Positions 23,004 through 29,911 of a stretch of 32,467 nucleotides of DNA are shown piece by piece. How positions within the stretch are numbered: the first letter of the stretch is position 1; each line of letters begins with the position of its first letter. The stretch comes from a virus. The stretch spans positions 1 through 32,467 of IMG/VR virus record IMGVR_UViG_3300020201_000008; one strand, written 5' to 3'. A program made the translations under genes and the position numbers. The notes below the pieces were generated by a model, which was not told the origin of the DNA, searched no databases, and worked only from the letters and a program-made list of their open reading frames with translations.

Positions 23004-24080
23004 CTATTTTGGTTTACAATCTCGAATTAATTCTAAAAGTTTATTGGAAATAATAACATACTGATTTGATTTAGTAACACCAGCAGCAGCATAAGCATCA
23101 GCAACACCAGCAACACCAGCATCAGAAGCAGCAGCATAAGCAGCATCAGCAGCAGCAACACCAGCAGCATAAGCAGCAGCATAAGCAGCAACATCAGCAA
23201 CACCAGCAACACCAGCAGCATAAGCAGCAGCATAAGCAGCATCAGCAGCAGCAACACCAGCAGCATAAGCAACAGCATAAGCAGCAACATCAGCAACACC
23301 AGCAGCATAAGCAGCAACATAAGCAGCAGCAACACCAGCAGCATAAGCAGCAGCATAAGCAGCATCAGCAGCAGCAACATCAGTAGCATAAGCAACATAA
23401 GCAGCAGCATCAGCATCATAAGCAGCAGCATAAGCAGCAGCATAAGCATCATAAGCAGCAGCATCAGCATCATAAGCAGCAGCATAAGCAGCATCAGCAG
23501 CAGCAACACCAGCAGCATAAGCATCATAAGCAGCAGCATAAGCAGCATCAGCAGCAGCAACACCAGCAGCATAAGCAGCAACATAAGCAGCAACATCAGC
23601 AACACCAGCATGAGTAGAAGCAGCATAAGTAGCATCAGCAGCTATTCGCGCTAGTCGTAATTTATCTAGGTCCAAAACATCTCTCTTCAACTCTGTTAAA
23701 ACTCCATCAATCGCTGCAATCGATTTTTCGGTATTAGCGTATTGACGTGCTTGTTCCACCATAAAAACTAACATTGGCATTTTAATACTGTTTAAATCTG
23801 CTCCGACATTAATGGCCTCAAGAAATTGAACAGGAAAGGTTTTAGCTTTTTCTAGTGGCAGACCTTCAAATATTTTATCTTCTAATCGTGCTAACCATTC
23901 TGGTACGCCTATTTCAGTTTCATAAGCAGCGTGATTTGACCCGTGAATGGTGCAACCGACAGCACAGCCCCTACCATCTTCCCAATATTGGCCTTTGATA
24001 ATCTCATCGGCTTTGGCATGTGCATTAATGCGGTCTAGGTATTTTTCTTTAACGTCATTACTATTTAAAAATGCTTCCAC
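23004..24080 (-). CDS. Ala-repeat protein with conserved N-terminal domain (358 aa)
   Basis: Starts with GTG after GGAG. Residues 1-145 form a conserved-looking domain with QYWEDGRGCAVGCTIHGS (about 31-48), YETEIGVPEWLARLEDKIFE (53-72) and FLEAINVGADL. I recall this domain from phage and bacterial proteins that carry Ala-rich repeat tails, but no function is known to me. Residues about 148-335 are almost only Ala, Tyr, Asp, Val and Gly. The tail should be helical, with Tyr and Asp at regular places. The C-terminal 20 residues are ordinary again. Codons in the tail are nearly all GCT, TAT, GAT, GTT or GGT. Confidence 0.8.
   Translation of the reverse strand: MEAFLNSNDVKEKYLDRINAHAKADEIIKGQYWEDGRGCAVGCTIHGSNHAAYETEIGVPEWLARLEDKIFEGLPLEKAKTFPVQFLEAINVGADLNSIKMPMLVFMVEQARQYANTEKSIAAIDGVLTELKRDVLDLDKLRLARIAADATYAASTHAGVADVAAYVAAYAAGVAAADAAYAAAYDAYAAGVAAADAAYAAAYDADAAAYDAYAAAYAAAYDADAAAYVAYATDVAAADAAYAAAYAAGVAAAYVAAYAAGVADVAAYAVAYAAGVAAADAAYAAAYAAGVAGVADVAAYAAAYAAGVAAADAAYAAASDAGVAGVADAYAAAGVTKSNQYVIISNKLLELIRDCKPK
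23078..23638 (-). repeat. Ala-rich codon repeat tract (imperfect units of about 54 and 96 bp)
   Basis: Within the preceding gene, an 18-residue unit AAGVAAADAAYAAAYDA(Y/D) occurs twice in tandem, and a longer unit of about 32 residues containing VADVAAYA and AAGVAAADAAYAAA occurs about three times. Every codon has the form G/T-N-T, so Asp, Val and Gly differ from Ala by one middle base. The tract is likely to vary in length by slippage or recombination. Confidence 0.85.
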
Positions 24081-24892: not shown

Positions 24893-26111
24893 GTTTAACC
24901 CCGATCTCTTGTTTTTTGTAATCAACGACAGCGATCTCGTGAATGTTGAGATTGTCTGAATTGTATTTTACTAAGCAGGCTTGATTTTTCTTTCCATGCC
25001 GATTCTTTTCAGCAGAAATTAAAGCGTTCGCTTGATTATCAAAAGCAGACTTTGAGTCATTTGATTTAAAATTAAGGATCGTGTGGGCTGTAAACGTGGC
25101 TCGGTGGCTTGATGAGACAAGGCCATCGCGATTTAATTGAGCAAGAAGTAAGACACATAAATTAAGTTCTTTAGCGATGTTTTCTATTTTCTGTATTGCG
25201 ATTTGAAGCAGTTTCCACTCAGGTATATTTTTAGAATAAACGAGATCTATCTTTTGGTCGTAATCAATCACTACGAAGTCTAACCCTGAATGCTTTTCTT
25301 TTCGCATCAGTGACTCGATTGATTGAAGGCTTAACGAATAACCTTCAGTGAACTTGATATTGTCACCATAGGCCTTTAAATCAAAAACCGCTTGCTCATA
25401 CTTAATTTGACCTTCGTATAGGTCCTTAAAGGATTTCTGAGTTGTTAAAACAACAAGCCTGTTTGTGATGTCCGCTAAAGCCATTTCCATGTTGATAAAT
25501 AAACATTTTGCTTTAGTCGCTGCACGCACTAGGAGGTTCAAGGCGAGGTTTGTTTTACCAAAGCCAGTCTCACCAAGGATCATGACGATTCTCCCCGGGT
25601 TAAAGCCACCAACCATTTTAGACAACATCTCAAAGCCTGGAATGATTACTCGCTCTAGACCTAGCCTTTGTTTTTCCAGAAAGGCCTCATACTCGGTCGG
25701 TAAAAACTCAGTCACAGTTTTAGTTTTAATGACTGATGATTGATCGATATCAAACTCCTGCAATAGCTTGTCACCAAAGTCAGGATGCGCCTGCAAGGAA
25801 AGACCTAATTCAGAGTATCGATAAGCCTTGTAAGCTTTTTGGAATTGATGACTGATTTCTTCTTCATCACCACCAACATTCTCAAGCGAGACGCCACCCA
25901 TCTCTAGAAATCTAATATCATCACCCATCTCTGAGAGCGCAGCTTTATGAGAATTATTAGCTCGTAAAACTAAATACTTTTTAACAATTTCAACATTCTC
26001 GAAATGTGGAAGCCTATTCCAGTCGATACCGGCAAGGATTGAAACTCTTTGAAATTCCTCGTCTACGAGGTACAAATATGCGATGTTATTTAAAAACTTA
26101 CCGAGTTGCAT
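24876..26111 (-). CDS. DnaB-like replicative helicase
   Basis: The 411-aa protein has the RecA-type ATPase core of DnaB-family helicases that unwind the fork: Walker A GETGFGKTN from residue 180, FINMEMA at about 205 (sensor/H1a), Walker B DFVVIDYDQ around 278-286, and VLLLAQLNRDG (about 320-330) as the motif H3 region with Gln325. The N-terminal 150 residues are helical and replace the usual DnaB N-terminal domain; they end in the linker FLPTEYEAFLE. It overlaps the initiator gene by 14 bp, with GGAG before ATG 26111, the lambda O/P-like order of initiator then helicase. Confidence 0.9.
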   Translation of the reverse strand: MQLGKFLNNIAYLYLVDEEFQRVSILAGIDWNRLPHFENVEIVKKYLVLRANNSHKAALSEMGDDIRFLEMGGVSLENVGGDEEEISHQFQKAYKAYRYSELGLSLQAHPDFGDKLLQEFDIDQSSVIKTKTVTEFLPTEYEAFLEKQRLGLERVIIPGFEMLSKMVGGFNPGRIVMILGETGFGKTNLALNLLVRAATKAKCLFINMEMALADITNRLVVLTTQKSFKDLYEGQIKYEQAVFDLKAYGDNIKFTEGYSLSLQSIESLMRKEKHSGLDFVVIDYDQKIDLVYSKNIPEWKLLQIAIQKIENIAKELNLCVLLLAQLNRDGLVSSSHRATFTAHTILNFKSNDSKSAFDNQANALISAEKNRHGKKNQACLVKYNSDNLNIHEIAVVDYKKQEIGVKRAKEV

Positions 26112-26889
26112 TGTACAACTCCAAAGCCTTGTTTTTTAATCTCGTGGTGATGTAGTCAGATTTTGAGATCCCAGTTTTTTCATCGGTCGTTTTCTCGTTG
26201 ATGATCGAGGTGAGATCGAGTTTTAAATCCTCTGGATTTCCGTAAACGTGAGCAAGTGTGGCTAAGAATTTGTTTTTGGTTTTCTTGAAAAGTGGACTTT
26301 TGATTTCACCGAAAGCATTTTGGCTTTGTAGAAAAGTTTCAATCGATTCGATGTCAGATGCTTTCGTTAACCAGACGTTTTGAAATTCGGATGAATTTAA
26401 AATTCTAAAAAAATCATTAACCTCTTCTTCTTCTTTATTAACTCTACCTCTAACTCTACCTCTAACTCTAATTAGTCGTGTGGTACCACACGACATGTCC
26501 TGTGGGGGTACTGTGGGGGTACTGTGTTCTAAGGAAATGAGTAACTTATTGTTTTCAATATTGAAACCGAGTTTTTCGAGCTTTTCTTTAGCGCGAACTT
26601 TTGCAGTCCATGAATCTTTAGACTCACCGTATTGAAACTCGAAAAACTGAACTATGAGAATTTCTTCAGCACCTTTTAAAAAGACAACCTTGTCACCAAA
26701 CCATTGTGATACCAGTGTGGGGGTACACTCAAAACCGAGCTGAAAACTTGCTAAATCGTAATCAATTTTTAGAACACCATGACTCTCGCACTCATCACAA
26801 AGATAGATCCATGTTAGCTTTGCAGTAACAGGTAAAGACCTAAACCAATAATTTCGCCATTTTTTAGTGTCAGTGAATCGTTTAGACAT
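26098..26889 (-). CDS. Phage replication initiator (O-like, winged-helix N-terminus)
   Basis: I choose ATG 26889 (MSKRFTDTKKWR), with GAGGGG upstream; a TTG two codons earlier is in frame. Residues 1-50 (KRFTDTKKWRNYWFRSLP then ESHGVLKIDYDL) match the N-terminal winged-helix region of phage replication initiators. A basic linker with RVRGRVRGRV and a Pro/Thr stretch (STPTVPPQ) lies near residues 123-150, followed by Glu-rich KEEEEVNDFF and a helical C-terminal part that probably loads the helicase. The linker DNA holds palindrome and direct repeats, the likely origin. Coupled to the downstream helicase. Confidence 0.8.
   Translation of the reverse strand: MSKRFTDTKKWRNYWFRSLPVTAKLTWIYLCDECESHGVLKIDYDLASFQLGFECTPTLVSQWFGDKVVFLKGAEEILIVQFFEFQYGESKDSWTAKVRAKEKLEKLGFNIENNKLLISLEHSTPTVPPQDMSCGTTRLIRVRGRVRGRVNKEEEEVNDFFRILNSSEFQNVWLTKASDIESIETFLQSQNAFGEIKSPLFKKTKNKFLATLAHVYGNPEDLKLDLTSIINEKTTDEKTGISKSDYITTRLKNKALELYNATR
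26440..26726 (-). other. Putative replication origin inside the initiator gene
   Basis: Three kinds of repeat lie together. A 12-bp unit AACTCTACCTCT is tandem at 26440-26451 and 26452-26463, with a 7-base partial third copy. A perfect 20-bp palindrome, GTCGTGTGGTACCACACGAC, covers 26475-26494. The 11-mer TGTGGGGGTAC occurs at 26501-26511 and 26512-26522 and again at 26716-26726, and its ends resemble the palindrome core TGTGGTAC. An A/T-rich, pyrimidine-rich stretch (about 26403-26440) flanks one side. This is the layout of iteron origins such as lambda ori in O. The function is inferred. Confidence 0.65.
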
Positions 26890-26945
26890 GAACAAACCCC
26901 TCTATTCCATCACCAATAACGCCTCAACAGATGATAGGCGCCTGG

Positions 26946-27043
26946 TCAGGGCTAGAAAGGGGTTTTAAATTACGAGAGGCTTAGCTATAGGACTTCAAGT
27001 CCCCCTTCGCGCACCAATCAAAACTTAAGGCTTCTAGCCCTGA
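26946..27043. repeat. 12-bp perfect inverted repeat flanking the attachment core
   Basis: TCAGGGCTAGAA (26946-26957) is the exact reverse complement of TTCTAGCCCTGA (27032-27043). The 74 bases between the arms hold the tRNA-end sequence. The arms could be integrase or excisionase arm sites, or form a long hairpin. The 5-bp hairpin GGACT-TCA-AGTCC overlaps the tRNA T-loop. Confidence 0.6.
26994..27016 (+). other. Candidate attP core: 23 bases identical in form to a tRNA 3' end
   Basis: The bases read as T-loop TTCAAGT, T-stem strand CCCCC, acceptor strand TTCGCGC, discriminator A and CCA, in exact tRNA spacing. The rest of a tRNA is not present: no GCGCGAA acceptor partner and no GGGGG T-stem strand upstream. 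A tRNA 3' end without a tRNA next to integrase sequence is the usual form of an attP core, because integration then restores the host tRNA. The host tRNA should start GCGCGAA. Confidence 0.75.
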
Positions 27044-27070
27044 AGAGGTTGTTCTCTCTGTTGAAAAGAA

Positions 27071-27175
27071 CTACCTGTATTTAATTAAATTCAGAACATC
27101 TTTCAAGTCATTTCTATCATCGTGCAAATACGTCATTGTTATTTTAATGTCTGAGTGCCCCATCATAAGGCATAG
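27071..27175 (-). pseudogene. int: Truncated tyrosine integrase, C-terminal remnant
   Basis: The frame from 27175 to TAG 27071 (34 codons) reads LCLMMGHSDIKITMTYLH and then a helical, charged end (DDRNDLKDVLNLIKYR). GHSDIKxTMxYxH is the C-terminal signature of tyrosine recombinases, with the box II His of GHS and the catalytic Tyr in TYLH. The frame is closed upstream by TAA, and the bet gene ends 8-10 bases further. The core with catalytic Arg and Lys is missing from the whole genome. ATG 27166 could give a 31-aa peptide, but no ribosome site supports it. Confidence 0.85.
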
Positions 27176-27185
27176 TTAAGAAAAA

Positions 27186-28058
27186 TTAATTTGGCATTTT
27201 CTCACTATGATCAAATATTGGTTCTGAAGCATCGTCTGATCTCAGAGAAGCTAAATAGGCTATGCCCATATCCATAAGATCTTGTGCTTTTTCAGTTAAA
27301 GGCTTTCCAGATTTAGCAGCACCATCTTGTAACCAATTCAAATATCCTTTTAATTCTAAATCTTGCATTTCCGAAAGTCGTTTTTCTTTATGCTTTCCGA
27401 ATTTGATTATGTAATCACCAGGCGAGGCAATGAACTTTTTCGCCTCTGTTTGCTTTGGAATATAACGCACAACTTCAGACATCACATCTTTAATGGCAGC
27501 TACATTACTTTGTGCGATTGATGGCTCAACAGCAGCCTGTTCCATCTCTTCGGTTGAATAAATACCTGACATCTCATTGGGAAAGGCTTTTCTAAGCGCC
27601 AATGCCTCGGCCACTTTTGCGATCATTAACGCTGGCATTTTATTCCACATGAAAGTAAGTTTTCCGGCTCGATCTTTTCCCGCGTATTCTTCAAACAATG
27701 CAATCGCAATTAATGGCTCGCGAAACTTAGTCTTGTAAACGCCGAGCTTGCATGCCTTTGGAGTTTCTTTTGAAAGCCATACGTCTTTCCAAACCCCATC
27801 TTGTCCGCACCACATAGGCGCTGTCTGGCCCTCGTAGGCACCAGATCTTTCAGCAATCAACCGAAGCCCATCAATCGAAGCCATAATGTTTAGCTTGCCA
27901 GTGTTCGGGATTGCATAAATCTGTCTCGTAATCGGGTCAAGCCCAGTGCGCTTGCATTGAATGGCAAAGTTTTTCAAATCGTCATTACTTAATTTGTTTT
28001 GATTTGCAATCAACTCTAAATTTTTATCGATGTAGTCTACGTGTGATAATTCGTTCAT
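27186..28058 (-). CDS. bet: Bet/RecT-family single-strand annealing recombinase with C-terminal DUF3820-like domain
   Basis: I choose ATG 28058, which overlaps the HNH stop (ATGA) and has GGAG before it; ATG 28070 is in frame. The N-terminal domain is typical of Bet: FAIQCKRTGLDPITRQIYAI, MASIDGLRLIAERSGAYEGQ, KMPALMIAKVAEALALRKAF and GIYSTEEMEQA. It anneals single strands for recombination or replication. An extra domain from about residue 205 contains DYIIKFGKHKEKRLSEM then GYLNWLQD, the FGKHKxK...YLxWL pattern of DUF3820-like domains. No exonuclease partner is visible. It is translated after the HNH gene. Confidence 0.9.
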   Translation of the reverse strand: MNELSHVDYIDKNLELIANQNKLSNDDLKNFAIQCKRTGLDPITRQIYAIPNTGKLNIMASIDGLRLIAERSGAYEGQTAPMWCGQDGVWKDVWLSKETPKACKLGVYKTKFREPLIAIALFEEYAGKDRAGKLTFMWNKMPALMIAKVAEALALRKAFPNEMSGIYSTEEMEQAAVEPSIAQSNVAAIKDVMSEVVRYIPKQTEAKKFIASPGDYIIKFGKHKEKRLSEMQDLELKGYLNWLQDGAAKSGKPLTEKAQDLMDMGIAYLASLRSDDASEPIFDHSEKMPN

Positions 28059-28525
28059 ATATTTCTCCATGATTTTCTTTTAGTTATGCTGTATATATTG
28101 CTCTCAGTTACGCTAAATATCTTTGCGATATTGGCACGCGATTCTCCAGTTTCCCATAAGCCTCTTATCTTTAAAACATCAACCGAGCGTAGTTTGCTCA
28201 AAGATGATTTCTCTCCGCTAGTCGTCCTTCCTTTTGTGTTACAATCCTGCATATTGTCTTTTCTTGTGCCTAAAAATAAATGATTAGGATTAACGCAAGA
28301 CCTGTTGTCACACTTGTGGCACACGTCGAGATCATTGAAATATATTTTATTAAAAAACATTTCGTATGAAAATCTGTGAGCTTGAACTGTTTTGCCTTTA
28401 AAGCCAAAACGTCCGTAACCATGAGTTCCGATCGCGCCAATCCATGTCCAGCATCCAGCAGACTGTTTTATTTTTTCAATAAAACGAACATGAGCAGGTT
28501 TTCTTGCATAAAATCCAGTGGGCAT
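28055..28525 (-). CDS. HNH homing endonuclease with C-terminal HTH
   Basis: The 156-aa protein has GCWTWIGAIGTHGYGRFGFKG (HNH_3-type start, about residues 23-43, shown in part), HRFSYE, then VCHKCDNRSCVNPNHLFLGT with the zinc/His-Asn-His residues, and DNMQD. Residues about 110-150 form a DNA-binding HTH (VDVLKIRGLWETGESRANIA then FSVTESNIYSI). Such free-standing homing genes cut unoccupied sites in related phages and spread. AAAGGA precedes the ATG. Here it sits between Gp157 and Bet and shares ATGA with bet. Confidence 0.9.
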   Translation of the reverse strand: MPTGFYARKPAHVRFIEKIKQSAGCWTWIGAIGTHGYGRFGFKGKTVQAHRFSYEMFFNKIYFNDLDVCHKCDNRSCVNPNHLFLGTRKDNMQDCNTKGRTTSGEKSSLSKLRSVDVLKIRGLWETGESRANIAKIFSVTESNIYSITKRKSWRNI

Positions 28526-28535
28526 ATTTATTCCT

Positions 28536-29000
28536 TTATGTATTAGATTTTAATTGAACTGATTTATTTTGTATTAACTTACAGCCTGGGATTTCACGGC
28601 CCATTTTCATCTCGTCTTTTATCGCGTCTTTACGGATCTCACTGACAATAATAGATCGCCTGTATTCGTCCGGTATTAAAGACTCATCCTCTATTACTAA
28701 AGAATGTGGGTTTAATTTATAAACATACTTTATAAGGCTACCCGTTATTTCAACCATACCCTCCTCGGACATCTCTTGCATAATCGAGTTTTCAGCTAAA
28801 GCGACTAATGCATCTAAAGTCTTGCGCTCGTTAGCAAGAGCTGTTTCCTTAGCCTTTAGTGCCTTAGCCTCACCCTGGATAAGATTAATAAGGTTAGCCA
28901 GGTGATCAACGGGGCTACTTGCTGGTAGCATGGTCTTGATCTTTTCCTTGAGGTCTTGAGGTAAGCCCACAGCAGATTTAACGATATCTAGGGCCTTCAT
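28536..29000 (-). CDS. Gp157-like (siphovirus Gp157) protein
   Basis: The 154-aa protein has a long helical N-terminal half (LANLINLIQGEAKALKAKET; AENSIMQEMSEEGMVEIT) and a C-terminal beta part SLIKYVYKLNPHSLVIED, then LIPDEYRRSI and KDAIKDEMKMGREIPGCKL. The last phrase, with IPDEY...K..IK...K.G..IPG, is the Gp157 signature. The role is not proven; these proteins sit beside Bet/RecT or SSB in recombination modules. The start overlaps the upstream gene (ATGA). Confidence 0.88.
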   Translation of the reverse strand: MKALDIVKSAVGLPQDLKEKIKTMLPASSPVDHLANLINLIQGEAKALKAKETALANERKTLDALVALAENSIMQEMSEEGMVEITGSLIKYVYKLNPHSLVIEDESLIPDEYRRSIIVSEIRKDAIKDEMKMGREIPGCKLIQNKSVQLKSNT

Positions 29001-29659: not shown

Positions 29660-29911
29660 ATGAAAGAAAATACACTAACAACTAGGGATGCAATACTAAC
29701 GAACTTAAAAGCCATTATGGACGATAGAGGGCTATCTTATAAAGACCTAGGCGACATGATGGGACTCTCAAAGCAGCGCGTGTCTGGCATATTCAACAAT
29801 CCAGAAATGACACTGAAAACGATAGGTAAAATAGCCGCAGCCTTAGACATTGAAGAGACTGATTTAACAAGTGAACCAAAGCTTTTAAGTATCAAAAAAC
29901 AACTAAAATAG
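29660..29911 (+). CDS. XRE-family (Cro/CI-like) transcriptional regulator, probably from a leaderless mRNA
   Basis: The 83-aa protein is a single HTH domain: LKAIMDDRGLSYKDLGDMMG, the recognition helix SKQRVSGIFN, then LKTIGKIAAALDIEETDL, and a short Lys-rich tail. It lacks a CI-type dimerisation or cleavage domain, so it is closer to Cro or an antitoxin-type regulator. The -10 box ends seven bases before the ATG and no ribosome site exists, so translation should begin at the first nucleotide. It likely binds the symmetric operator upstream and controls its own and the leftward promoter (inference). Confidence 0.88.
   Translation: MKENTLTTRDAILTNLKAIMDDRGLSYKDLGDMMGLSKQRVSGIFNNPEMTLKTIGKIAAALDIEETDLTSEPKLLSIKKQLK

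Follow-up and report, generated by a model that had tools for sequence, protein, structure and literature searches.

An integrase stump next to a tRNA-type attachment site

In the phage genome IMGVR_UViG_3300020201_000008, the attachment site of a tRNA-integrating phage lies beside the last codons of an integrase gene. How did this arrangement arise, and what does it say about the phage and its host? The attachment site looks undamaged and the enzyme is gone, as though the phage descended from one of the dormant type and had lost its integrase on the way. We favor, with a probability of about 70%, a model in which a tyrosine-integrase module left this remnant when a tRNA-Leu-integrating ancestor deleted most of int and kept attP.

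The stretch analyzed, referred to here as the window, comprises all 32,467 bp of the IMG/VR record and is a complete phage genome. Its ends carry an exact 127-bp repeat, and their join is crossed by a 5.7-kb contig from metagenome 3300020192 at 99.8–100% identity, indicating a genome that is either circular or circularly permuted. A second 3300020192 contig matches 10.7 kb of structural genes at 99.6%. The terminase-portal-capsid block is encoded on the plus strand. The early block reads leftward and consists of a helicase, a 265-aa gene (26098–26895, minus strand), bet, an HNH endonuclease and a Mu Gam-like end-protection protein (28536–29000, minus strand), with an 83-aa Cro/CI-type HTH regulator (29660–29911, plus strand) diverging from it. 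The bet gene, which encodes a RecT-like annealing protein (27186–28070, minus strand), is intact. The 265-aa gene to the left of attP had been labeled an initiator in an earlier, sequence-only reading of this DNA, a putative role, as its one match is a weak one to a PHROG of unknown function.

Three other regions of the window deserve mention. The HNH gene (28055–28525), located between bet and gam, matches a putative homing endonuclease from Vibrio phage 199E37-1 with 86% identity over 56 bp and may be a recently moved element, because a contig from the second sample breaks inside it. At 561–1761, immediately ahead of the gene for the small terminase subunit, a ParB-like gene overlaps a Mom-like DNA modification gene. 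A very alanine-rich, repetitive protein with AAYAAGVA-like repeats and a conserved N-terminal part is encoded at 23004–24080; its homologue in another phage (L001:5111–5935; 58% over 153 aa) adjoins the bet gene of that phage.

The attP core matches the 3′ end of a Bdellovibrionota tRNA-Leu

The core, TTCAAGTCCCCCTTCGCGCACCA (26994–27016, plus strand), is an exact tRNA-Leu 3′ end from the T-loop to CCA. Against tRNA-Leu genes (anticodon GAG or CAG) of Bdellovibrionota, 23 nt match exactly and 24–25 nt at best; the exact block begins precisely at the T-loop and ends 0–2 bases past CCA, so that against some hosts the core reaches 27017 or 27018. Neither ARAGORN nor Rfam detected a whole tRNA or another known RNA in the window, in agreement with the proposal that a tRNA 3′ end is present here without the rest of a tRNA. 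Tyrosine-integrase cores of this form restore the tRNA upon integration.

A slightly degenerate core pattern, scanned against 84,980 genomes, matched 26 places, including Pseudobdellovibrio, several Bdellovibrio and other Bdellovibrionales; most of the places in Bdellovibrionota coincide with tRNA-Leu genes (GAG or CAG) called by the tool. An 18-nt kernel of the core is present in 9 of 144 genomes of the class around Bdellovibrio qaytius, and its read-backwards control gave zero matches among the genomes listed. Matching host tRNA-Leu genes thus exist in real genomes, which supports the reading of this site as the attP core of a phage that integrates into tRNA genes. A host tRNA with this 3′ end had been predicted to start with GCGCGAA; the tRNA was found in Bdellovibrionia, and it starts with GCGCGGA. 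As the kernel also occurs in some tRNAs of Actinobacteria and Bacteroidota, the choice of host leans on the relatives of the phage as well.

The core is framed by an inverted repeat that is perfect over 12 bp, as had been reported, with a left arm TCAGGGCTAGAA at 26946–26957 and a right arm TTCTAGCCCTGA at 27032–27043. With the loop limited to ≤100, the window contains no other inverted repeat of 12 bp, and such a repeat arose in 7 of 5000 regional Markov simulations. The two arms may be a pair of arm-type integrase sites; the right arm overlaps a weak terminator-like hairpin (minus strand, 27041–27027). We discarded the idea that attP adopts a special fold as a single strand, since its free energy is no better than that of shuffled sequences (z = −0.01).

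The integrase gene is reduced to its last 34 codons

The stump, LCLMMGHSDIKITMTYLHDDRNDLKDVLNLIKYR (27071–27175, minus strand), comprises the last 34 codons of an integrase gene (27175–27074) and a stop codon (27073–27071). A distance of 54 bp separates it from the core, and its C terminus points towards attP. Profile comparisons with PHROG integrases (phrog_216, E = 5e-5; phrog_1, E = 5.4e-5) bear out its identification as the end of a tyrosine integrase. The Pfam score (PF00589, 14.5 bits) is below the cut-off of 27.1, which is expected for a stump of 34 residues. The nearest named phage integrases, including that of Aeromonas phage phiO18P, are 44–54% identical over 24–27 aa. A comparison with the PDB returned nothing informative, no match at E ≤ 0.01 was obtained in the 144 Bdellovibrionia genomes, and the best host integrases share 32–42% identity with the stump, leaving it without a close homologue there.

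Of the catalytic set R-K-HxxR-H/W-Y the stump retains only the histidine of the GHS motif and the catalytic tyrosine. The rest of the active site is missing, and as judged from its sequence the stump would not yield a functional tyrosine recombinase. An in-frame stop lies directly upstream and no Shine-Dalgarno sequence or other ribosome-binding site was seen, which makes translation of the stump improbable. No further integrase emerged when the window ORFs were scanned with PHROGs, and in a six-frame scan of the window the stump was the sole stop-free GHS...Y motif; both results support the earlier claim that the remainder of the integrase is absent from the genome. The same reading had bet begin where the missing parts should be. 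Instead, bet ends there, and its intact stop codon precedes the stump by 10 bp. What adjoins attP is thus not a complete integrase gene but its 34 C-terminal codons, and a truncated int beside an intact attP is the arrangement of an integrase-deleted derivative.

We infer the deletion route, the deletion size and the loss of integration as follows. In the ancestor, int would have separated bet from attP and, as in lambda, would have been transcribed toward attP; recombination between the attP core and the tRNA would have inserted the phage into the 3′ end of the tRNA-Leu gene in its host. The lost segment, ~0.8–1 kb long, would have begun just past the stop codon of bet and stretched up to the last 34 codons of int. 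It would have encoded the DNA-binding part along with most of the catalytic domain, and attP would have been spared. Lacking an active integrase, the present phage would replicate lytically or integrate only via a compatible integrase of another element.

Relatives include a temperate phage and lack an intact int at this locus

Several IMG/VR contigs share structural genes with the window phage. A search of 11 related viral records (the structural relatives and one bet-sharing phage) with PF00589 detected no integrase, and the core is absent from the structural relatives and from the bet-sharing phage. We searched for an intact int with bet, the 265-aa neighbor, the DnaB helicase, gam, the terminase and the core as queries, absence from these searches being weak evidence. 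The bet search returned distant relatives only, the helicase and 265-aa searches gave no matches to a syntenic relative with int, and the gam search yielded a sister contig that ends short of the stump locus. Neither IMG/VR nor the 144 Bdellovibrionia genomes yielded a relative in which a complete int separates bet from the 265-aa gene, or one with the same bet-int-attP order; the deletion that was said to have joined bet to the int tail is thus a putative one.

Among viral contigs, the sole other match to the core pattern was rejected as a relative: it is an unrelated, GC-rich phage with a different integrase-like gene (IMG/VR 3300027307_000001; L083:3408–5238). Its core derives from a tRNA-Leu, and its 340-aa ORF resembles a tyrosine integrase by eye; here another phage uses the same tRNA end.

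Homologues of the terminase occur in two Bdellovibrionia genomes (43% and 39% identity), away from tRNA-Leu, and none of the 144 genomes contains a lysogen at tRNA-Leu that carries a terminase relative. The sole named terminase relative belongs to a Silvanigrella phage (25%). In one Bdellovibrionia genome, a complete-looking prophage of 33.1 kb (G060:C6, 28.0–61.1 kb; L081/L134, L066/L067) begins at a tRNA-Asp gene, which adjoins a 422-aa tyrosine integrase, and at its far end repeats 15 bp of the tRNA end, GTCGACCCCGCCATT. It resembles the window phage in its structural gene block (34–67% identity) and in having a tRNA attachment site; in contrast, it uses tRNA-Asp rather than tRNA-Leu, has a full integrase that reads away from the tRNA, and differs in its early region. 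As this relative is a genuine prophage, located in a tRNA gene and equipped with a tyrosine integrase, the lineage contains temperate members. The early regions are mosaic, and the ancestral state between bet and attP can therefore not be read from the relatives.

Another relative of the window phage in Bdellovibrionia (L064/L065; G081:C4, about 25–50 kb) has genes that are open only if TAG is a sense codon. Its terminase contains five in-frame TAG codons and a tRNA with a CTA anticodon is encoded at L064:16813–16900, which together point to a TAG-recoded phage or prophage.

Alternative origins of the locus

Foremost among the alternatives, and itself unlikely, is an assembly artefact or minority variant: the population would have a complete int, and the assembler either joined bet to the int tail or assembled an int-less subpopulation. 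The locus is indeed known from a single metagenomic contig, and the near-identical 3300020192 contigs miss the stump and core, one of them ending at 28465 within the HNH gene. However, the contig is circular, with the exact end repeat and a join confirmed by an independent contig, and the intact bet stop codon 10 bp before the stump is unlike the random cut of a misjoin.

A slightly less probable route is the gain of attP and the int tail as a fragment, either through recombination, illegitimate or promoted by Bet, or through aberrant excision beside another prophage. The truncated int of Streptococcus thermophilus phage TP-778L arose in a comparable way, by recombination with a remnant prophage during aberrant excision (PMC3952083), and the window phage carries RecT/Bet. 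Moreover, near-full-length relatives are without any int, so that loss and partial acquisition are not polarized by them. Yet no donor was found, and the core, both arms and the int tail stand in the order and spacing that the residue of the phage's own int-attP module would have.

We give just as little credence to a site that is still in use, with the integrase of a resident prophage or island acting on attP in trans and the phage as an integrase-dependent passenger. The core and the inverted repeat are undamaged and 142 of the 144 Bdellovibrionia genomes encode phrog_216-type integrases, but no integrase motif lies beside tRNA-Leu at the host loci examined, the 144 genomes contain no lysogen of the window phage, and the stump has no close homologue, hence no matching helper is known. 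An equally improbable extension, in which the phage integrates at tRNA-Leu by such an integrase or by Bet-promoted homologous recombination through the attP-int tail segment, would make the locus a lasting division of labor instead of decay. Deletion of int from a resident module remains our preferred model, and the stump would be of greater weight only if integration in trans were shown.

The locus points to a probable predatory host

The phage probably infects Bdellovibrio-like predatory bacteria. A host in Bdellovibrionota is indicated by the match of the core to tRNA-Leu together with the phage relatives in Bdellovibrionia and the Silvanigrella phage. The main value of the locus is this assignment, as the attP core both assigns the phage to a group of hosts and predicts the gene used for attachment; the collections searched contain few tailed phages from Bdellovibrio-like predators, and the tRNA-Asp prophage shows that the lineage can be temperate.

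A tRNA-adjacent structured RNA in Bdellovibrionia

A second copy of the core occurs in just one of the 144 genomes, G001, where it resembled an attR scar. We rejected it as such: it forms the end of a structured RNA element next to a tRNA and is therefore no evidence of integration by the window phage. The RNA family, which lies outside the window phage locus, is ~150 nt long and located mostly 23–75 bp downstream of tRNA genes (Gln, Leu, Asn, Ser, Val, Ala, Phe and Met). It occurs in 26 of the 144 genomes in up to eight copies (L094–L099 and L139–L168; for example L094:1514–1661, minus strand, and L096:1498–1645, plus strand), with no conserved neighbor gene seen, and is absent from Rfam.

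The 5′ end of the RNA is the reverse complement of the T-arm and 3′ strand of the adjacent tRNA, and in many copies the 3′ end repeats this tRNA from the T-loop to CCA. The longest match averages 12–13 nt with the RNA's own tRNA and 5.6–5.9 nt with other tRNAs. Covariation is strong: in 25 sequences, whose alignment was fitted to the structure, 43 of 47 pairs changed on both sides, compared with 28.6 ± 2.7 in shuffles. The family could be a putative tRNA-targeting mobile or guide RNA. Together with the TAG-recoded relative it may be more unusual than the stump locus.

Comparison with known systems

P2-like tyrosine integrases (phrog_216, for example that of phiO18P) align with the stump at their C-terminal end; of such an enzyme the window phage keeps the last 34 residues only. 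Lactobacillus phage LL-H, a virulent phage related to temperate mv4, reportedly carries a defective int-attP remnant. For LL-H a temperate relative with a full int is said to be known, whereas none was found for the window phage.

TP-778L was the only direct precedent for a truncated int with attP that we retrieved from the literature. It keeps a 139-codon integrase gene (PMC3952083). Like the window phage, TP-778L retains part of int and belongs to a temperate lineage, and it forms plaques. The two differ in what is left, a 139-codon gene as opposed to the last 34 codons beside an intact tRNA-type core, and their hosts are unrelated. As int-truncated phages such as TP-778L are documented, the stump represents a familiar kind of decay.
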